Shown here: one piece after another, positions 8,810 through 46,839 of the stretch
Position numbering within the stretch: the stretch's first letter is position 1
How the letters are laid out: each line of letters starts with the position of its first letter
DNA from: Sphingomonadales bacterium
GTDB lineage: Bacteria > Pseudomonadota > Alphaproteobacteria > SMXS01
DNA length: 64,000 nucleotides
Reading direction: 5' to 3'
Assembly: GCA_022844405.1 (NCBI GenBank)
Contig: JALHLV010000010.1
Location: 62,001-126,000, forward strand
Program-made: the position numbers and the translations under genes
Notes under the pieces: model-generated
The model's database searches: none
Told to the model about the DNA's origin: nothing
What the model saw: the letters and a program-made list of their open reading frames with translations, nothing else

Positions 8810-9604
8810 ATGAGCCTGCGGCTGTCGACCTGGAACATCAACTCGGTGCGCTTGCGGATCAACCTGGTGACCGCGTTCCTCGAGCGCATGCAGCCGGACG
8901 TGATCTGCCTGCAGGAAACCAAGACGCCGGATCCGTTCTTCCCGCTGAAGGCGTTCGAGAAGCTGGGCTACGTGCATCACGTCATCGCCGGGCAGAAGGG
9001 CTATCACGGCGTCGCCATCCTGTCGCGTTGGCCATTCGAGGCCCGCGACCGGCGCAACTGGTGTGGCAAGGACGACGCCCGCCACGTCCACGCCACGCTG
9101 GAGGGCGGCATCGAGGTACACAATTTCTACATCCCGTCGGGCGGCGACATTCCCGATCCGGCGGTGAACGAGAAATTCGCCCACAAGCTGATGTTCCTCG
9201 ACGAAGCCGCCGAGTGGTTCGCCGGACGCTGCCGCCCCGACGGCAAGATGATCCTGGTCGGCGACCTGAACGTGGCGCCGTCGGAATTCGACGTCTGGTC
9301 GCACAAGCAGCTGCTCGACGTGGTCTCGCACACGCCGATCGAGGTGGAGAAGCTGACGCGGCTGATGGGCACCGGCTGGCTGGACGCGATCCGCGAGTTC
9401 CACCCCGAGCCGGAAAAACTGTACTCCTGGTGGAGCTACCGGGCGCAGGACTGGCGCGCGTCCAACCGGGGACGGCGGCTGGACCACATCTGGGTGACGC
9501 CACCGCTGAAGCCGCACCTGCGCTCGGTCCACATCATGGACGAGGCGCGCGGCTGGCAGCAGCCGTCGGACCACGTCCCGGTGACGGTCGATCTGGAGGT
9601 GTGA
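8810..9604 (+). CDS. xthA: Exodeoxyribonuclease III
   Basis: 264 residues, the standard length. It is a metal-dependent AP endonuclease and 3'-5' exonuclease for base-excision repair in the cytoplasm. Motifs run in order: LSTWNINSVRLR at the start, CLQETK with the metal-binding glutamate near residue 30, the GDLNVAP loop near 150, and SDHVPVTVDL with the catalytic Asp-His pair at the end. It lies 9 bases after the acidic hypothetical gene and 2 bases before an acetyltransferase gene, so the three form one transcription unit. Confidence 0.95.
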   Translation: MSLRLSTWNINSVRLRINLVTAFLERMQPDVICLQETKTPDPFFPLKAFEKLGYVHHVIAGQKGYHGVAILSRWPFEARDRRNWCGKDDARHVHATLEGGIEVHNFYIPSGGDIPDPAVNEKFAHKLMFLDEAAEWFAGRCRPDGKMILVGDLNVAPSEFDVWSHKQLLDVVSHTPIEVEKLTRLMGTGWLDAIREFHPEPEKLYSWWSYRAQDWRASNRGRRLDHIWVTPPLKPHLRSVHIMDEARGWQQPSDHVPVTVDLEV

Positions 9605-9606
9605 CA

Positions 9607-10182
9607 ATGGAACTCGGCACGCCGTTGCTGGAGAACGCCTTCGTTCGGCTGGAGCCGCTGGAGGATGTCCACAAGGAATCGCTGCGCGCGGCCTGCGAGG
9701 CTGACCGGGAAATCTGGGAGATTTATCCCTATTCCATGATCGGCCCACATTTCGACCCGTTCTGGGCCCGCACCCGCGCCGAGCAGCAGACCGGGCGCTG
9801 CGTGCCGTTCGCGGTGAAGGCCCGCGGCGTGTGTATCGGGATCACCCGCTATCTTGGAATCGACCCGGTGAACCGGTCGGTGGAGATCGGCGGCACCTAT
9901 TACCGCCCGGACCAACGCGGCGGCACCGTCAATCCGGCCGCCAAGCATCTGCTGCTGGACCATGCCTTCTCCCAAGGCGCGCGCCGGGTGCGATTCAGTG
10001 TCGACGCCATCAATACCCGCTCCCGCGCCGCCATGGTGAAGCTGGGCGCGGTGCAGGAAGGCATCCTGCGCCAGGACCGGGTGTGCTGGACCGGCCGTGT
10101 CCGCGACACCGTGGTGTTCTCGGTGCTGGCCGAGGAATGGCCAGCCGTGCGTGACGGGCTGCTGAAACGGCTGGGCGGGTAG
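9607..10182 (+). CDS. GNAT-family N-acetyltransferase (RimJ/RimL type)
   Basis: 191 residues from the ATG at 9607, two bases after the xthA stop. The layout fits a RimJ/RimL-like GNAT: an N-terminal LENAFVRLEPLEDVHKESLRA, the IGGTYYRPDQRGGTVNPAAK region equivalent to the acetyl-CoA loop, then HAFSQGARRVRFSVDAIN and NTRSRAAMVKLGAVQEGILR. Proteins of this kind modify small amines or protein N-termini; the substrate cannot be read from sequence. An open frame extends far upstream through xthA but is a shadow. Confidence 0.85.
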   Translation: MELGTPLLENAFVRLEPLEDVHKESLRAACEADREIWEIYPYSMIGPHFDPFWARTRAEQQTGRCVPFAVKARGVCIGITRYLGIDPVNRSVEIGGTYYRPDQRGGTVNPAAKHLLLDHAFSQGARRVRFSVDAINTRSRAAMVKLGAVQEGILRQDRVCWTGRVRDTVVFSVLAEEWPAVRDGLLKRLGG

Positions 10183-21922: not shown

Positions 21923-22801
21923 TTACCGCTTCGCGGCCAGCCTCGTCGTCACGTCCTCGAGCTGGTCGAGGGTGCCGTATTTGATCACCACGGAACCGCC
22001 TGGACCCTTGTGATCGACAGTAACCCGCAGCCCCAGCGCCTCGGAAAGCTGTTTCTCCAGCGCCCGCGTATCCGCGTCCTTCATGGGCCGGACCGGGCCA
22101 CGCCCCTTCGAGCGCGGTGCCTCGCGGGCCAGATCCTCGGCCTGGCGGACGTTGAGACCGCGGGCGACGATCTCCTGCGCCAGCCACTCGGCGTTGTCGG
22201 AGGTCACCAGCGCGCGGGCGTGGCCCATGGACAGCGCGCCGTTGTCGAGCAGCGCCTGCACCTTCTCGGGCAGGCTCAGCAGGCGGACCATGTTGGCCAC
22301 ATGCGGCCGGCTCTTGCCGACGACCTCGGCCACGTCCTGCTGGTTGTGGCCGAACTCGTCGATCAGCCGCCGGTAGCCGCGCGCCTCGTCGATCGGCGAC
22401 AGGTCCTGGCGCTGCACGTTCTCGACGATGGCGATCTCCAGCGACTCGTCGTCGGACAGCGTCTTCTCGATCACCGGCACGGCATGCAGCCGCGCCCGTT
22501 GGGCGGCGCGCCAGCGGCGCTCGCCGGCGACGATCTCGTATTCGCCCGGCCGCGACGACGACGGACGCACCAGAATCGGTTGCAGGATACCGCGCGCCTT
22601 GATCGACGTGGCCAGGTCCTCGATCGCCGCCTCGTCGAACCGGGTGCGCGGCTGGTAGCGGTTGGGATGCAGCTTCTCGATCGGCAGCTCGCGCGCGCCG
22701 CGCGGCGCGGCGTCGGCCGCCGGATCGTCGCCCAGCAGGGCAGACAGGCCCCGGCCAAGCCCGCCTGGGCGGCGTTTCGCGATCTTGTCGTCCTGTGCCA
22801 T
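21923..22801 (-). CDS. parB: Chromosome partitioning protein ParB
   Basis: 292 residues. The N-terminus (RRPGGLGRGLSALLGDD) carries the ParA-activating segment. The ParB/Srx CTP-binding domain follows (LPIEKLHPNRYQPRTRFDE, GERRWRAAQRARL) and then the helix-turn-helix (GHNQQDVAEVVGKSRPHVANMVRLL), which reads parS. The C-terminal dimerisation domain ends GGSVVIKYGTLDQLEDVTTRL. It follows parA by about 20 bases. Two parS sites lie 1.4 and 3.4 kb upstream. Confidence 0.97.
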   Translation of the reverse strand: MAQDDKIAKRRPGGLGRGLSALLGDDPAADAAPRGARELPIEKLHPNRYQPRTRFDEAAIEDLATSIKARGILQPILVRPSSSRPGEYEIVAGERRWRAAQRARLHAVPVIEKTLSDDESLEIAIVENVQRQDLSPIDEARGYRRLIDEFGHNQQDVAEVVGKSRPHVANMVRLLSLPEKVQALLDNGALSMGHARALVTSDNAEWLAQEIVARGLNVRQAEDLAREAPRSKGRGPVRPMKDADTRALEKQLSEALGLRVTVDHKGPGGSVVIKYGTLDQLEDVTTRLAAKR

Positions 22802-22821
22802 GCCGGTCTAATTCCTTGATA

Positions 22822-23658
22822 TCACGCGGGAACCAGTTTCTTTTCGCGCTTCAGCAGCTCCGAGGCCAGCTTGATGTAGGCCATGCTGCCGGGACAGCGC
22901 ATGTCATAGACGAGGGCCGGCTTGCCGTGGCTGGGCGCCTCCGACAGCCGCACATTGCGCGGAATTACGGTCTTGAACACCGCGTCGCCCATGAAGTCGC
23001 GCACGTCGTCCTCCACCTGGCTCGACAGCCGGTTGCGCCGGTCATACATGGTCAAGACGATGCCTTCGAGGCGAAGGTCCGGATTGAATGCGCCCCGCAC
23101 CCGCTCGATGGTCTTCATCAGCAGGCTGAGGCCTTCCAGCGCGAAGAATTCGGTCTGCAACGGCACCAGCACCGTGTCGGCCGCCACCAGGGCGTTGAGG
23201 GTCAGCAGGCCAAGCGAGGGCGGCGAATCGATCAGCACGTAATCGAAGGCGTCGAGCGCTTCGCCCGACTCGCCGTCTCGCAGCGACTGGCGCAGCCGCT
23301 GGGCGCGCTCCTCGGCGCTGACCAATTCCAGCTCGGCGCCCGCCAGATCGACCGTGGAGCAGACCAGCTTCAGGCCCGGGATCGCCGTCTGGATCAGCGC
23401 CTCGCCCAGATCGTGGTCGCGCATCAGCACATCGTAGATGCTGACCTTGCGCGCCGCCCGGTTGATGCCCAGGCCGGTGCTCGCGTTCCCCTGCGGGTCC
23501 AGGTCGATCATCAGCACCGACTTGCGGATCGCCGCCAGCGCCGTCGCCAGGTTGATCGCCGTCGTGGTCTTGCCGACGCCGCCCTTCTGGTTGGCCACGG
23601 CGATGATCCGGCCGCCGTGCCGCTTCCTGCGCTTGCCGTCAATGCCCAGGGACAGCAC
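22822..23658 (-). CDS. parA: Chromosome partitioning ATPase ParA
   Basis: 278 residues from a GTG at 23658, preceded by AGGA eight bases upstream; the frame is open to 23976 but that part is antisense-free overlap with rsmG. No ATG is available near the expected N-terminus. The start lies inside the last codons of rsmG (20-base overlap), implying translational coupling. The deviant Walker A is ANQKGGVGKTTT; LMIDLDPQGNAST and VLIDSPPSLGLLTLNAL complete the ATPase core. ParA moves ParB-parS complexes during segregation. Confidence 0.95.
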   Translation of the reverse strand: MLSLGIDGKRRKRHGGRIIAVANQKGGVGKTTTAINLATALAAIRKSVLMIDLDPQGNASTGLGINRAARKVSIYDVLMRDHDLGEALIQTAIPGLKLVCSTVDLAGAELELVSAEERAQRLRQSLRDGESGEALDAFDYVLIDSPPSLGLLTLNALVAADTVLVPLQTEFFALEGLSLLMKTIERVRGAFNPDLRLEGIVLTMYDRRNRLSSQVEDDVRDFMGDAVFKTVIPRNVRLSEAPSHGKPALVYDMRCPGSMAYIKLASELLKREKKLVPA

Positions 23659-24270
23659 GGGCAATATCCTGAAGTTGAATGACTTTCGCCTCGGGGTCCG
23701 TGGCGCTGGAGAAGGTTTCGGCGCGGAAACTCCACTGCCCGCGCGCCTCGGCCAACTCGGACCCGGCGTCCCGCCCCTTGAGGAAGAACGCGCTGCCGCC
23801 CGCCGCCAAAAGCGGCGCGGCGTAGCCGAGCAACTTGCCGAGTGGCGCCAATGCGCGTGCCGTGACGATGTCCGCGATGACGCCCTCCATTGCTTCGAGA
23901 CGCGACGGGAGCAGCTTAACAGAAACCCCGGTGACGCGGGCGGCTTCTTGCAGAAAAACCAGCTTCTTCCGGTCACTGTCGATCAGCGTCCAGCCGCCCA
24001 CGCCCATGATCGCCAGCACCATCCCCGGAAAACCCGCGCCGGTACCGATGTCGGCGCAGCGCGGTGCCGGATTCGCCGCCAGGATCAGCGGCGCAAGCTG
24101 GGCCGAATCGAGGAAATGACGCCGCCAGAGCTCGGGCAGCGTGGCGGACGACACCAGATTGTGGGAACGCTGCCACTTCACCAGCAGCGCCGCATAGGCT
24201 TCCAGTCTATCTAATGTTTCACGTGAAACATCGGTCGCGCGCCGGAACGCGGCGGAATCGAACCCTTCGC

Positions 24271-26216: not shown

Positions 26217-26232
26217 TGTTTCACGTGAAACA
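26217..26232. promoter_or_regulatory. parS centromere site 2, upstream of mnmG
   Basis: TGTTTCACGTGAAACA, identical to the site inside rsmG and again a perfect palindrome. It lies in the mnmE-mnmG gap, 60 bases upstream of the mnmG start. It is about 10 kb from the putative oriC. Two perfect copies 2 kb apart is a typical alphaproteobacterial arrangement. Confidence 0.97.
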
Positions 26233-34973: not shown

Positions 34974-36023
34974 TCAGCTGGTGCGCCAGTCCCTGATCAG
35001 ATCGGACAGGGCCGCCACATGCTCGGGCGGAGTCTGCGGCACGATGCCATGGCCCAGGTTGAAGATGAAGGGGCCATAGGACAGCGCCTCAAGAATGTGC
35101 CGTGCCTGATCCTCCATGACCCGGCCGCCGGCGACGACCGCCAGCGGGTCCAGATTCCCCTGCACGGCAACCGTGGCCTGCAGCGTGCTCGCCGCCCAGC
35201 GCGGCGGCATGGTCGTATCGATCCCGACGCCGTCGATGCCCGTGGCCGCGGCATATTCCGGCGTCTTGGACCCGGCGCCGCGCGGAAAGCCGATGACCGG
35301 CACGTCCGGATAGCGCAGCTTCAGCCGGCCCACGATCGATCGTGTCGGCACCGTGCACCAGCGGGTGAACTGGTCCTCGGACAGCACCCCCGCCCAGCTG
35401 TCGAACAGCTGTACCGCATGGGCGCCCGCCTCGATCTGCCGCGACAGGTACTCGATGGTGGCTTCGGTCAGCACGTCGATCAGCGCGCCGAAGCCCTGCG
35501 GATCGCGCATGGCCCACAACCGTGTCTCCTGGAATTCCTTCGACCCGTGGCCTTCCACCATGTAGCTGGCAACGGTCCACGGCGATCCGGCGAACCCGAT
35601 CAGCGCCGTCCCATCGGGCAGCGCGCCGGCTACGCGCTCAACGGTCTCGTAGACCGGCGCGAGGCGCTCGTGGATCCGCTCCGGCTTCAGCGCGGCCAAG
35701 GCGGCGCCGTCGCGGACCGGTTGCAGGACCGGACCCTCGCCTTCCCTGTACTCCAGCTTCTGGCCCAGCGCATCCGGGATCAGCAGGATGTCGGCGAACA
35801 GGATCGCGGCGTCCATACCATAGCGCCGGATCGGCTGCAGCGTCACTTCCGCCGCCGCCGTCGGCGTGTAGCACATTTCCAGAAAGTCGCCGATCTGCGC
35901 CCTGACCTTGCGGTATTCGGGCAGATAGCGTCCCGCCTGGCGCATGAACCAGAATGGCGGACGGTCGACGGGACGGTCGGTCAGCGCATCGATCAGACGC
36001 TTGCCGGAGGAAGGGTTGTTCAC
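34974..36023 (-). CDS. hemE: Uroporphyrinogen decarboxylase
   Basis: 349 residues. It decarboxylates uroporphyrinogen III to coproporphyrinogen III in haem synthesis. Signatures are PPFWFMRQAGRYLPEYR near residue 22, GFAGSPWTVASYMVEG near 145 and QLFDSWAGVLSEDQF near 210. It is the left flank of the putative chromosomal origin, as in Caulobacter and Rickettsia, and is transcribed away from it with hemJ. Confidence 0.97.
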   Translation of the reverse strand: MNNPSSGKRLIDALTDRPVDRPPFWFMRQAGRYLPEYRKVRAQIGDFLEMCYTPTAAAEVTLQPIRRYGMDAAILFADILLIPDALGQKLEYREGEGPVLQPVRDGAALAALKPERIHERLAPVYETVERVAGALPDGTALIGFAGSPWTVASYMVEGHGSKEFQETRLWAMRDPQGFGALIDVLTEATIEYLSRQIEAGAHAVQLFDSWAGVLSEDQFTRWCTVPTRSIVGRLKLRYPDVPVIGFPRGAGSKTPEYAAATGIDGVGIDTTMPPRWAASTLQATVAVQGNLDPLAVVAGGRVMEDQARHILEALSYGPFIFNLGHGIVPQTPPEHVAALSDLIRDWRTS

Positions 36024-36403
36024 GCGCCCTTATCCTTAAGATTTTTCTAAAGAGAAAGGTTGAAGAGGTAGTGGATGCCTGTGAGTCACGGGGGCAGCGC
36101 AGTCATACAATACTTGTCCTCGCGCTGGCCACTTTTATGCCTCGACGGCGGGGGACGCCGCCAGGGCGGTGGACAAGCATGCGCGGGCCATGCCTGACGC
36201 GGTGTGGCAACATCTGAGTCATGGGGATATCCGGTGCAGCCGGCAGCGCAACCTCCGTGACTCACAGCCAGTGCGCCGGGGTTGTTCAACAGGGCCACGG
36301 GTTGGCGGACTTATCCCCGCTGAACCGCGTCCCATGCGGGACATTGCCAAGAGATGCAGGTTATGCACAGTTCATCCACCGTGGCTTCACGTTGGGCGAT
36401 ACC
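36024..36403. other. Putative chromosomal replication origin (oriC) between hemE and ppsR
   Basis: A 380-base gap between divergent hemE and ppsR, the junction that forms oriC in Caulobacter and Rickettsia. TTATGCACA at 36361-36369 is a perfect DnaA box; weaker two-mismatch boxes are TTATCCCCG (36311-36319) and TTGTCCACC on the minus strand (36168-36176). An AT-rich patch at about 36028-36066 could be the unwinding element and contains TTAAGATTTTTCTAA, close to a CtrA site. TGAGTCAYGG occurs three times (36082, 36215, and 36255-36264 inverted). Confidence 0.75.
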
Positions 36404-37228
36404 ATGCAGCGTTTCCATCTCCATCTGGTTTCCGACGCGACCGGCGAGACACTCAGCGCCGTGGCCAAGGCGGCGCTTGCCCAGTTCGAAGGCTTCGACG
36501 CCATGGAACATCTGCATGCCATGATCCGCAGCCCGAAGCAGATGGAACTGGCGCTTGCCGCCATCCAGCGCACGCCCGGCCTGGTGCTCTACACGCTGGT
36601 CGACCGCGAGCTGCGCGCCCAGCTCGAGGAAGGCTGCCGGGCGCTGGGATTCCTGTCGATCGCCGTGCTCGATCCGGTGATGGACGCCTTCGGCCGGTTC
36701 CTTGGCGCTAAGAGCCTGGGCCGTCCCGGCCAGCAGCACGAAATGAACGCCGAGTATTTCGGCCGCATCGAGGCCATGGGCTTCACCATGGCCCATGACG
36801 ACGGTCTGCGGACCGACGACCTGCACCAGGCCGACATCATCCTGCTGGGCGTCTCGCGCACCTCGAAGACGCCGACCGGCATCTATCTCGCCAACCGCGG
36901 CTTGAAGGTGGCCAACGTCCCGGTCGTACCCGGCGTGCCGCTGCCCGAGGAGCTGGACGGGCTGAAGAAGCCGCTGATCGTGGCGCTGACCGTCTCGCCG
37001 GACCGGCTGGTGCATATCCGCCGCACCAGGATGCGGGCGCTGTCCGAACCCGAGGATACCGCCTATGCCGATCCGGAAGCAGTGGCCGAGGAGATCACCG
37101 CCGCGCGGCGGCTCTACCTGAAGCGCGGCTGGCCGATCATCGACGTGACGCGGCGTTCGATCGAGGAAACCGCCGCGGCGATCTACAGCCTGTACCAGCG
37201 CCGCCAGGAAGAGCGGGCCGGGGAATGA
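36404..37228 (+). CDS. ppsR: PPDK/PEP synthase regulatory protein (kinase/pyrophosphorylase, DUF299; RP001 homologue)
   Basis: 274 residues from the ATG at 36404 (QRFHLHLVSDATGETLSAVA), the family's usual start; the frame open from 36221 runs through the origin region. The family phosphorylates and dephosphorylates pyruvate phosphate dikinase or PEP synthase. The P-loop-like segment is ILLGVSRTSKTPTGIYLA near residue 150, and VSPDRLVHIRRTRMR follows. It heads a rightward run ppsR-maf-aroE-coaE-dnaQ with 1-4 base overlaps. Confidence 0.94.
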   Translation: MQRFHLHLVSDATGETLSAVAKAALAQFEGFDAMEHLHAMIRSPKQMELALAAIQRTPGLVLYTLVDRELRAQLEEGCRALGFLSIAVLDPVMDAFGRFLGAKSLGRPGQQHEMNAEYFGRIEAMGFTMAHDDGLRTDDLHQADIILLGVSRTSKTPTGIYLANRGLKVANVPVVPGVPLPEELDGLKKPLIVALTVSPDRLVHIRRTRMRALSEPEDTAYADPEAVAEEITAARRLYLKRGWPIIDVTRRSIEETAAAIYSLYQRRQEERAGE

Positions 37229-43727: not shown

Positions 43728-44051
43728 TCAGTCGTCGATGGGCTTCAATGATCGAATGTTGCCATTCGAGAGGCGTTTTTGGCGGGCTTTTTCATACCTC
43801 TCTTTGACGCCGGCGTTGGCGGCTAGTTCCGCGTCGATGTAGAAGTCGAGCGCTGCACGAATAACTTCTTTTTGTGGCGCGTTAAGATAAGCTGCACAGA
43901 AATCCGCGAGCTTCCCTGCCCAAGGTTCTCCGAGTTGAAGCTTTGCGTCTTTGGAACTGGGAGGCATCAGCGCCATCTCACGCATAAGGTACCTTAAGGT
44001 ACCTTCGGGTACTTTCAGGTTGAATTGAGGGCCACAACGTGTAAGATGCAT
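43728..44051 (-). CDS. Small protein of the low-GC insert, possibly ribbon-helix-helix type
   Basis: 107 residues from the ATG at 44051; TTG at 44072 and ATG at 43985 are alternatives. The segment CGPQFNLKVPEGTLRYLMRE resembles the Arc-type strand-helix opening of ribbon-helix-helix DNA-binding proteins, and APQKEVIRAALDFYIDAEL is a strong amphipathic helix. Base composition is well below the flanking genes. It is divergent from the next gene with about 40 bases between starts. Three 10-base repeats lie inside or just upstream of its start, depending on which ATG is used. Family call is low confidence. Confidence 0.55.
   Translation of the reverse strand: MHLTRCGPQFNLKVPEGTLRYLMREMALMPPSSKDAKLQLGEPWAGKLADFCAAYLNAPQKEVIRAALDFYIDAELAANAGVKERYEKARQKRLSNGNIRSLKPIDD
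43986..44015. repeat. Three 10-base tandem repeats with a 20-bp perfect palindrome
   Basis: Reads AAGGTACCTT twice, then CGGGTACTTT. The first two units make a perfect 20-bp palindrome. A 10-base period is the helical repeat, as in operators bound by arrays of ribbon-helix-helix dimers. It overlaps the 5' part of the adjacent leftward gene (encoding PEGTLRYL) or lies immediately upstream of its ATG at 43985. Whether it is an operator or only coding sequence is undecided. Confidence 0.6.
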
Positions 44052-44090
44052 ATGTTTGGGATCTGTTGTCAACCTGGGGCGAGGGTTACC

Positions 44091-44366
44091 GTGACAAAGC
44101 TAGGGGAAGGCTCATTAATTGCCGTTCGATGTGAGGTTAAGCCGGGACCGTTTTCTGAAGATCGCTTGATCAGTTTCGAGACTGTCGATGGTCCGGTTTC
44201 GGGCTTTGTGCGGGAAAACGAGCTTCGCGAAGAATCTGGACAATGGTATGTACGTGCGGTCGTTCAGTCGATAGAAGCGGACCTTATAACCGTGTGGATT
44301 CGAGGTTCATTCTTTACTACGAACGGCATTGCAACTATTCCTGCAGATATGGCCTTAGCAGCCTAG
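44091..44366 (+). CDS. Hypothetical protein of the low-GC insert
   Basis: 91 residues from a GTG at 44091 preceded by GCGAGGG at good spacing; ATG at 44052 or 44046 and TTG at 44025 would overlap the divergent gene. The protein looks all-beta (GSLIAVRCEVKPGPF, VSGFVRENEL, WYVRAVVQSIEADLITVWIRG). No domain recognised. It reads toward the dCTP-deaminase-like gene, 38 bases downstream, and shares its low GC, so the two may be one unit. Confidence 0.6.
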   Translation: MTKLGEGSLIAVRCEVKPGPFSEDRLISFETVDGPVSGFVRENELREESGQWYVRAVVQSIEADLITVWIRGSFFTTNGIATIPADMALAA

Positions 44367-44404
44367 ATTCATGATCCTCTGGCACTTTTTAGCTTGGGAA
44401 GCGC

Positions 44405-44998
44405 ATGATCCTTTCTCAACCTCAAATACGCGACGCAGTTAAGAAAAGTGAAATTAGATTTGACCCACCGCTCCAAGAGCGTCAGTGGGGAGAAGCGTCC
44501 GTAGATCTGAGACTTGGTTTAAAATTCACAAAACTCATACCCGCTCCAAATGTTACTTTTTCTATGGCCCAAGGGATCACAGCTGTTGCTGATACGGGTT
44601 TATGGCACGAGGAGGTATTTCCAATTAAAGACGGCTTTGGAAAACGCCGCACCTATATTCTAGAACCAGGTGAATTTATCCTCGCTCAAACTTATGAGCA
44701 TATTTATATGCCGAGGAATCTTATAGCAATGGTTGAGGGGCGTAGTACATATGCCCGGGTCGGTCTATCGATGCATCAAACAGCACCATGGATTCAGCCT
44801 GGATGGGACGGCCATATTACCTTAGAAATACGGAATAGTGGACAATTCAAGATTGAATTGACGCCATTAGATGATATGCCATGCCAACTTACGTTCTTTC
44901 AATTAACTAGTGAGCTAGCTGAAAACACAGCCTATGGCTCTCGGGCAACTGACGTTTTTCAAAATCAAACAAGTGCTCTTCCTAAAACTAAACCGTGA
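44405..44998 (+). CDS. dCTP deaminase family protein
   Basis: 197 residues with GGAAG before the ATG. The Dcd/dUTPase fold is clear: MILSQPQIRDAV and EASVDLRLG at the N-terminus, PGEFILAQTYEHIYMP, then EGRSTYARVGLSMHQTAPW near 112 and the IQPGWDGHITLEI motif containing the catalytic glutamate. The arginine/serine contacts of GRS are kept, so it is likely active on dCTP (or a related nucleotide). GC content is far below the neighbours, indicating transfer. Stand-alone dCTP deaminases can be housekeeping or antiphage; which applies here is inference. Confidence 0.85.
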   Translation: MILSQPQIRDAVKKSEIRFDPPLQERQWGEASVDLRLGLKFTKLIPAPNVTFSMAQGITAVADTGLWHEEVFPIKDGFGKRRTYILEPGEFILAQTYEHIYMPRNLIAMVEGRSTYARVGLSMHQTAPWIQPGWDGHITLEIRNSGQFKIELTPLDDMPCQLTFFQLTSELAENTAYGSRATDVFQNQTSALPKTKP

Positions 44999-45019
44999 TT
45001 AACATTAGATACTATTAAG

Positions 45020-45526
45020 TTAAATTCCGAACGCCCGTTCCATCATCAGGATGTCGACGTAGCGGCCGAACTTGAAGCCGGCCTCCGTCAGCTCGCCCAC
45101 GCTCCTGAATCCGAATTTGTCGTGCAGCGCCACCGAGCCGGGATTCGGCTGGGCGATCATGGCGATGGCGCGGTGCAGTTCCGGTTCCTGGTCGAGGGCG
45201 GCGAACAGCGCGCCATAGAGCGTGCTGCCGATGCCCTGCTCGTCGGCGTGGGGCGCCAGATAGATGGCGACCTCGACGGTCCGCTCATAGGCCTGCTTGT
45301 CGCGGAACGGGGTGGAATAGGCGAAACCCTGGATGACGTTGCCGGCGCCGGCCGCCACGAAGATCTGGTGCGGCCCCCGCGGCGCGAACTGGTGGAACCA
45401 GCCCAGCCGGTCCGACGCGCGCAGCGGCCTGGTGTCGAAGGTGATGACCGTGTTGGCGACGAAATAGTTGTAGATCTCGGTGATCGCCGCCAGGTCCGCT
45501 TCGGTGCCGTGGCGGGCGGTCGCCAT
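45020..45526 (-). CDS. GNAT-family N-acetyltransferase (phosphinothricin acetyltransferase-like)
   Basis: 168 residues. It resembles the Pat/Bar branch: IYNYFVANTVITFDTRPL near the N-terminus, then EVAIYLAPHADEQGIGSTLYGALF, whose Q-x-G-I-G-S loop binds acetyl-CoA, and QPNPGSVALHDKFGFRSVGEL. Many such proteins acetylate methionine derivatives; phosphinothricin activity cannot be inferred. High GC, so it belongs to the chromosomal backbone, not to the insert. Its start abuts the hslU stop. Confidence 0.88.
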   Translation of the reverse strand: MATARHGTEADLAAITEIYNYFVANTVITFDTRPLRASDRLGWFHQFAPRGPHQIFVAAGAGNVIQGFAYSTPFRDKQAYERTVEVAIYLAPHADEQGIGSTLYGALFAALDQEPELHRAIAMIAQPNPGSVALHDKFGFRSVGELTEAGFKFGRYVDILMMERAFGI

Positions 45527-46839
45527 TACAGGATGTGCTTCGACAGGTCGGTGTCGCGCACCAGCGCGCCCGCATGGGCGTCCACATAGGCGGCGTCGAC
45601 GGTGACCGTGGTGCCCGGCCTGTCGGTCGCCTCGAAGCTGATCTCGTCCAGCACCAGCTCCAGGATGGTGTGCAGCCGCCGTGCGCCGATGTTCTCGACC
45701 GACAGGTTCACCTCGTGGGCGGTCGCCGCCAGCGCGTCGATGCCGTCTTCGGTGAAGTCGAGCGTCACGCCCTCGGTTTCCATCAGCGCCTTGTACTGCT
45801 TGATCAGCGAGGCTTCCGGCTCCGTGAGGATGCGGCGGAAATCGTCGCGGCTCAACGCCTTGAGCTCTACCCGGATGGGAAGGCGGCCCTGCAATTCCGG
45901 CAGGAGGTCCGACGGCTTGGCCAGTGAGAACGCGCCCGAGGCGATGAACAGCACATGGTCGGTGCGCACCGGGCCGTATTTGGTGCCGACCGTGGTGCCC
46001 TCGATCAGCGGCAGCAGGTCGCGCTGCACGCCCTCGCGCGACACGTCGGCGCCGCTGCGCTCGCCCGAGCGGGCGGTGATCTTGTCGATCTCGTCGAGGA
46101 ACACGATGCCGCTCTGCTCCACGGCGTCGATGGCGGTGCGGGTGACGTCCTCGTCGTCGAGCAGCTTGTCGCTCTCTTCGGCCACCAGCATGACATGGCT
46201 TTCGGCGACCGTCGTGCGCTTGTCCTTGGTGCGGCCGCCCATCATCTTGCCGAACACGTCGTTCAGGTCGAGCATGCCCATCTGGGCGCCGGGCATGCCC
46301 GGGATGTCGAAGGTGGGCAGGCCGCCGCCGCCGGTGTCGGCCACCTTGATGACGATTTCCTTGTCGTCCATCTCGCCGGCGCGCAGCTTCTGGCGGAACT
46401 TGTCGCGGGTGTCGGGCCTTGCGTCGGTGCCGACCAGCGCGTCGAGCACCCGCTCCTCGGCGGCCAGCTCGGCGCGGGCGCGCACGTCCTTGCGCTTCTT
46501 CTCGCGCACCATGACGATGGCCGATTCCAGCAGGTCACGGATGATCGACTCCACATCGCGGCCCACATAGCCCACCTCGGTGAACTTGGTCGCCTCGACC
46601 TTGATGAACGGCGCTTCGGCCAGCTTCGCCAGCCGGCGCGAGATCTCGGTCTTGCCGACGCCGGTCGGGCCGATCATCAGGATGTTCTTGGGCAGCACCT
46701 CGTCGCGCAGGCTGTCGGGCAGCTGCTGCCGGCGCCAGCGGTTGCGCAGCGCCACGGCCACGGCCCGCTTGGCGTCGTTCTGGCCGATGATGTAGCGGTC
46801 GAGCTCGGAGACGATCTCGCGAGGGGAAAAGGCGCTCAC
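45526..46839 (-). CDS. hslU: ATP-dependent protease ATPase subunit HslU
   Basis: 437 residues. It is an AAA+ unfoldase that feeds HslV. N-terminus [34 protein letters not shown] is split by family norm at RNRWRR; Walker A is [15 protein letters not shown] near 57; Walker [10 protein letters not shown] near 245 and the sensor region [19 protein letters not shown] follow. The substrate-recognition I domain (110-230) is present. It ends in HIL as needed to dock on HslV. The start overlaps hslV by 4 bases. Confidence 0.97.

Follow-up and report, generated by a model that had tools for sequence, protein, structure and literature searches.

Does the intergenic gap between the divergent genes hemE and ppsR hold the replication origin of this chromosome and, if so, what is the motif TGAGTCAYGG that recurs in it? 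The initial annotation had named the junction as a probable origin with few DnaA boxes and had left the motif without a known protein. We examined both points in the 64-kb window (the whole stretch of DNA analyzed), in the genomes of close relatives, and in the gaps between the same two genes at 88 alphaproteobacterial loci, at which gene order is conserved.

Elements of the hemE-ppsR gap

The gap comprises 377 bp and is bordered by rho, hemJ, and hemE on one side and by ppsR, maf, aroE, coaE, and dnaQ on the other (NCBIfam assignments). Its elements are as follows.

34974-36023, minus strand: hemE (NCBIfam)
36024-36400, no strand: hemE-ppsR intergenic gap, predicted oriC (from gene identities, the similar gap length in relatives, parS, and DnaA-type words in the 88 homologous gaps)
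36030-36060, no strand: AT-rich patch beside hemE, probable unwinding element, holding TTAAGATTTTTCTAA (from the sequence and from AT richness at the same place in relatives)
36061-36071, plus strand: C-poor TGAAGAGGTAG stretch, DnaA-trio-like; class relatives have GTAGTAGTAG there
36069-36077, minus strand: first of the degenerate DnaA boxes, TAGTGGATG (CATCCACTA in reverse), at a distance of 11 bp from motif copy 1
36078-36093, minus strand: motif copy 1, CCTGTGAGTCACGGGG, orthologous to the DnaA box TTATCCACAGG or the G-box TGATCCACAGG
36215-36230, minus strand: motif copy 2, TGAGTCATGGGGATAT, a degenerate box joined to a TGGGGATA box (TTATCCCCA type) that is conserved
36255-36268, plus strand: motif copy 3, inverted, CCGTGACTCACAGC, aligning with TTATCCACAGG in sibling G002
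36311-36319, plus strand: TTATCCCCG box, a class-wide origin word
36361-36380, plus strand: TTATGCACA DnaA box followed by TCATCCACC, conserved in the genus
36401-37228, plus strand: ppsR (NCBIfam)

The three copies of TGAGTCAYGG reported initially, two direct and one inverted, were found at 36082-36091 (plus strand), 36215-36224 (plus), and 36255-36264 (minus) and are the sole exact matches within the window. The entire 3.78-Mb genome holds seven, three of them inside the 377-bp gap, and in all seven genomes searched the long form of the motif was nearly restricted to the origin. A perfect off-origin match on contig C4 of the genome of the window, located where an unrelated coding frame starts, was treated as chance. 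Copies 1 and 3 form the arms of an inverted repeat (36076-36100 versus 36246-36270); the inversion described earlier therefore stands, while its extent is 25 nt with 84% complementarity rather than 13 bases. The core of the motif, GAGTC, is a GANTC site, i.e., a target of CcrM, the adenine methylase of the cell cycle.

The box at 36361-36369, TTATGCACA, had been called perfect; it fits the relaxed consensus TTATNCACA and has one mismatch from the strict TTATCCACA. The statement that the gap has few DnaA boxes holds when the strict consensus is applied, in part owing to the alteration of two orthologous positions of boxes. Other words of the gap recur in the class, with GTAGTGGAT present in 11 of the 88 gaps (0.23 expected) and TTATCCCCG in 28 (approximately 0.5 expected). 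A DnaA-trio phase was not significant, the triplet counts in the three phases being 45, 37, and 50 of 240.

The motif copies occupy positions of DnaA boxes

Alignment of the gap across relatives, the check proposed in the initial annotation, revealed that the motif is retained among close relatives. Seven genus members could be compared for copy 1, which read CCTGTGA[G/A]TCA[C/T]GGG in all seven (CCTGTGAGTCACGGG in five and CCTGTGAATCA[T/C]GGG in two). This stretch, located just inside the AT-rich patch and 11 bp past a GTGGAT half-box, showed 95% identity, placing it in the 93rd percentile of conservation within the gap. For copies 2 and 3, six sequences of the genus were aligned, full-length in the comparison of copy 3. 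Copy 3 read TGA[C/T]TCACAG or GGACTCACAG in five of them, and the sixth (locus L013, from sibling G002) carried a perfect DnaA box, TTATCCACAGG, at the same place.

Across the 88 origins of the class, the position of copy 1 was occupied mostly by CCTGTGGATAA, the reverse of TTATCCACAGG (L020, L023, L049, and others). Zavarzinia (L085) had TGTGGATCACGGGG there, several Roseomonas-type loci (L080, L100, L106, and L114) had TGTGGATCATGGGG, which is the Caulobacter G-box TGATCCACA, and their relative L102 had TGTGAATCATGGGG. Copies 1 and 3 still have the CACAG end of the ancestral box or G-box. Since both these copies align with DnaA boxes of relatives, the view that the TGAGTCAYGG copies are derived DnaA boxes with an altered core is well supported by the alignments, and the motif that had been left without a protein can be placed among DnaA boxes, with a CcrM target as its core.

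The derived form TGACTCACA has three mismatches from TTATCCACA, so DnaA may bind it very weakly or no longer at all. An altered specificity of DnaA was not supported, as DnaA has the ordinary DNA-reading motif GGRDHTTVMHA intact. Strict searches for DnaA boxes undercount the boxes in origins of this kind.

GANTC is retained inside the boxes

The GANTC site of copy 1 (36083-36087) was kept in 7/7 genus members and that of copy 3 (36259-36263) in 5/6 aligned sequences, with C or T as the middle base, while copy 2 had GANTC in only 3/6. Copies 1 and 3 each present a methylation target conserved inside an initiator box. As a control, all 16 gapped palindromes with the structure XYNY'X' were compared in the alignment of six genomes, and GANTC alone had columns that are conserved although the middle base varies. 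There were three such columns (36083, 36259, and 36292), two of which belong to copies 1 and 3; the third, at 36292, is lost in the window and lies outside any clear DnaA box. The five full-length sibling origins contain 5 to 7 GANTC sites each, and at least five were found in less than 0.3% of 377-bp windows of the sampled G002 and G005 sequence. The gap of the window itself has three, a count reached in 2.8% of the windows of its contig. This pattern matches what selection for a methylation site would be expected to leave, the six genomes being close relatives that represent few independent events.

Over the 88 gaps, GANTC reached 544 oriented counts, compared with 306 ± 19 expected from shuffles. 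Outside the genus, its occurrence within a box was sporadic, with a weak excess (nine sequences, P = 0.014), and a class-wide rule by which box variants become GANTC was not adopted. The literature searched, which covered subscription journals only in part, yielded no account of GANTC sites within the DnaA boxes of a chromosome.

The general enrichment of GANTC in alphaproteobacterial origins, together with the conserved column at 36292 outside any clear box, would also suit a reading in which the motifs are decayed DnaA boxes having no present role and GANTC reflects an overall richness of origins in this word, related for instance to transcription timing or duplex stability. The conservation of copy 1, which ranks with the highest in the gap, is not what decayed sites would show, and we consider this reading improbable.

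CcrM, GcrA, and CtrA

A CcrM-type methylase with a RAMA domain was detected in eight of the nine family genomes searched, the ninth genome being 78% complete, and GcrA in all three genus members searched. With GcrA present, the motif might be a palindromic operator, CCYGTGANTCACRGG, for a dimeric origin regulator or for GcrA acting on methylated GANTC, its likeness to DnaA boxes being secondary. The near-palindromic form of copies 1 and 3 and the 25 nt of inverted complementarity that links them agree with such an operator. Against it, strong conservation among the siblings is limited to the CACAG half, the opposite half being variable, and L013 has an ordinary DnaA box in place of copy 3. Moreover, unlike the operator of a regulon, the long motif hardly occurs outside the origin in these genomes. 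An operator of this type appears quite improbable to us.

The search for CtrA retrieved full-length orthologues with 68 to 77% identity in four other class members. No recognizable orthologue was found in any of the eight family relatives searched, the best matches having 37 to 38% identity. In the genome of the window, a CtrA fragment with 77% identity forms one end of a 9.6-kb contig (C41, 9,647 bp; locus L226), where ctrA and chpT-like genes occupy positions 9021-9647. Because the genes of this contig have no close counterparts in the siblings, its sequence is likely assembly contamination. A loss of CtrA has a precedent in Granulibacter (PMC2877005).

A near-CtrA site had been noted in the AT-rich patch. 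The sequence is as described, TTAAGATTTTTCTAA at 36036-36050 having one mismatch from TTAA-N7-TTAA, which is perfect in the gaps of two siblings. A role in CtrA binding is another matter: since the eight family relatives searched lack a recognizable CtrA and TTAA-N7-TTAA showed no enrichment in the 88 origins, it is probably not a CtrA site, and regulation of the gap by CtrA was rejected as a likely explanation.

Position of the origin

Three further features of the window belong to the surroundings of the gap.

21923-23610, minus strand: parB and parA
24216-24229, no strand: perfect parS GTTTCACGTGAAAC
26218-26231, no strand: perfect parS GTTTCACGTGAAAC

The genome has no perfect parS sites other than these two, which are located 10 to 12 kb from the hemE-ppsR gap and adjoin parB, parA, gidB, mnmG, and mnmE, an origin-type gene cluster. 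A nearby parS characterizes hemE-linked alphaproteobacterial origins, as does a cluster of DnaA boxes, which is represented here by TTATGCACA, TTATCCCCG, and the derived boxes and is accompanied by class-wide enrichment. In the 88 gaps, TTATCCACA occurred 40 times versus 0.4 expected from shuffles and TTATCCCC 80 times versus 2.1, and CCTGTGGAT was far more frequent than in shuffles. Siblings G002 and G006 (L013 and L014) have a third perfect parS, GTTTCACGTGAAAC, at the end of the gap beside the start of ppsR, a position at which the window carries a degenerate CTTCACGTTGGGCG instead.

GC skew had been suggested earlier as a check. It was too weak in the window, in its contig, and in sibling G002 to place the origin, and, skew being weak throughout the genus, the strand-skew switch could be placed only within a zone of approximately 100 to 400 kb. 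The best-fit switch of G002 was 250 to 380 kb from hemE, while in sibling G005, whose hemE is at 762 kb, the sign changed between approximately 760 and 860 kb. The polarity of the KOPS-like octamer GGGNAGGG in G002 flipped sharply at approximately 690 kb of contig C1, which is the probable replication terminus; when the two contigs of G002 are taken as one circle, the antipode of this point lies approximately 130 kb from hemE. Near hemE itself the polarity was diffuse over more than 100 kb, with no sharp switch. Skew thus neither pinpoints nor refutes the hemE-ppsR site; it gives a coarse position for the origin, in the region of that site. Within the window, positions 44001-46000 have a GC content of 0.56, compared with approximately 0.67 elsewhere, and a positive GC skew that ranks among the strongest.

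It is very improbable that the gap is only a regulatory region between divergent genes. Such a reading could draw on the weak genus-wide skew, the distant best-fit switch of G002, and the lack of a sharp KOPS switch at hemE. It is opposed by the two perfect parS sites within 12 kb, which have no equal elsewhere in the genome, by parAB and the origin-type cluster, by the DnaA-box words of the homologous gaps, by the antipode of the G002 terminus, and by the sign change of G005. The proposal that the junction is the origin has gained support from synteny, parS, and motif content across the 88 relatives, and with synteny, parS, and box content carrying the case, the gap is very probably oriC.

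A possible mechanism

The reading that we favor, with a probability of roughly two in three, is that the gap is the origin and that the motif combines an ancestral DnaA box with a CcrM target, the copies being weak boxes whose affinity may follow methylation. The position of the copies, their homology to boxes, the preferential conservation of GANTC within the genus, and the presence of DnaA, CcrM, and GcrA are all observed; continued binding of DnaA to copies 1 and 3, methylation of these copies, and an influence of that methylation on initiation are what we infer. The variable part of an ancestral box, TTATCCACAGG or the Caulobacter-type G-box TGATCCACAGG, would have become GA(N)TC. Copy 1 would be the box next to the AT-rich patch, at the very place that DnaA has to occupy for unwinding of the origin, and the copies would act as weak, tunable sites that DnaA reaches cooperatively from the stronger boxes TTATGCACA and TTATCCCCG. 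Methylation would be full before initiation, the sites would become hemimethylated after passage of the fork, and CcrM would restore the full state late. The methylation state would alter either the affinity of DnaA or the stability of the duplex, with an effect in either direction, and newly replicated, hemimethylated origins would not refire, which would help to limit firing to once per cycle. In this way methylation would take over a task for which CtrA, which usually blocks the origin, is unavailable if it is indeed absent.

The strongest version of this idea, that in a family lacking CtrA the DnaA box at the unwinding site is a CcrM switch through which methylation acts directly on DnaA binding, replacing CtrA as the once-per-cycle gate, is tentative, and we regard it as rather unlikely. 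Several points count against the favored reading as a whole: the three mismatches of TGACTCACA from TTATCCACA, the presence of GANTC in copy 2 in only half of the aligned sequences, its sporadic appearance in boxes outside the genus, the close relationship of the genomes compared, and the finding that in Caulobacter, which has CtrA, CcrM methylation is not needed for the control of initiation (PMC3973325). A genus that has no recognizable CtrA and keeps GANTC inside the DnaA boxes of its origin offers a clean test of a direct effect of CcrM on DnaA.

Comparison with known systems

The oriC of Escherichia coli has dense Dam targets (GATC) in and near its DnaA sites, acting with SeqA; the gap shares the methylation targets at DnaA sites and differs in having GANTC and CcrM. 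At the origin of Vibrio cholerae chromosome 2, the initiator sites (RctB 11- and 12-mers with GATC) contain the adenine methylation target and RctB binding is methylation dependent, so that methylation can act directly on the binding of the initiator (PMC2865523). It differs in relying on RctB and Dam and in being another type of replicon, and the effect of methylation was measured there, whereas here it is inferred.

The Cori of Caulobacter crescentus is likewise a hemE-linked origin, with weak G-boxes (T-to-G DnaA boxes) and W-boxes at key places (PMC4468827) and with GANTC (PMC3973325). Cori, however, pairs its G-boxes with CtrA sites, whereas the altered boxes described here hold GANTC and no CtrA orthologue was found in the relatives. 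For Caulobacter, CcrM is reported to be unnecessary for initiation control. The basal origin unwinding system (BUS) of Bacillus subtilis and other bacteria, composed of DnaA boxes and DnaA-trios, resembles the gap in its pair of boxes beside an AT-rich patch and in a TAG-rich, C-poor strand (PMC8287927); here, the trio phase is not statistically visible, and copy 1 occupies the place of a box. Clusters of GANTC also occur at the replication origins of alphaproteobacterial repABC replicons, at which RepC binding was reported to be methylation independent and which are not DnaA-box chromosome origins (PMC6090056).

Apart from the motif copies, TTATCCCCG/A words were as frequent as canonical DnaA boxes in the 88 gaps, and TGGGGATAA was present in 37 of them; TTATCCCCG/A constitutes a second type of box that deserves its own name.
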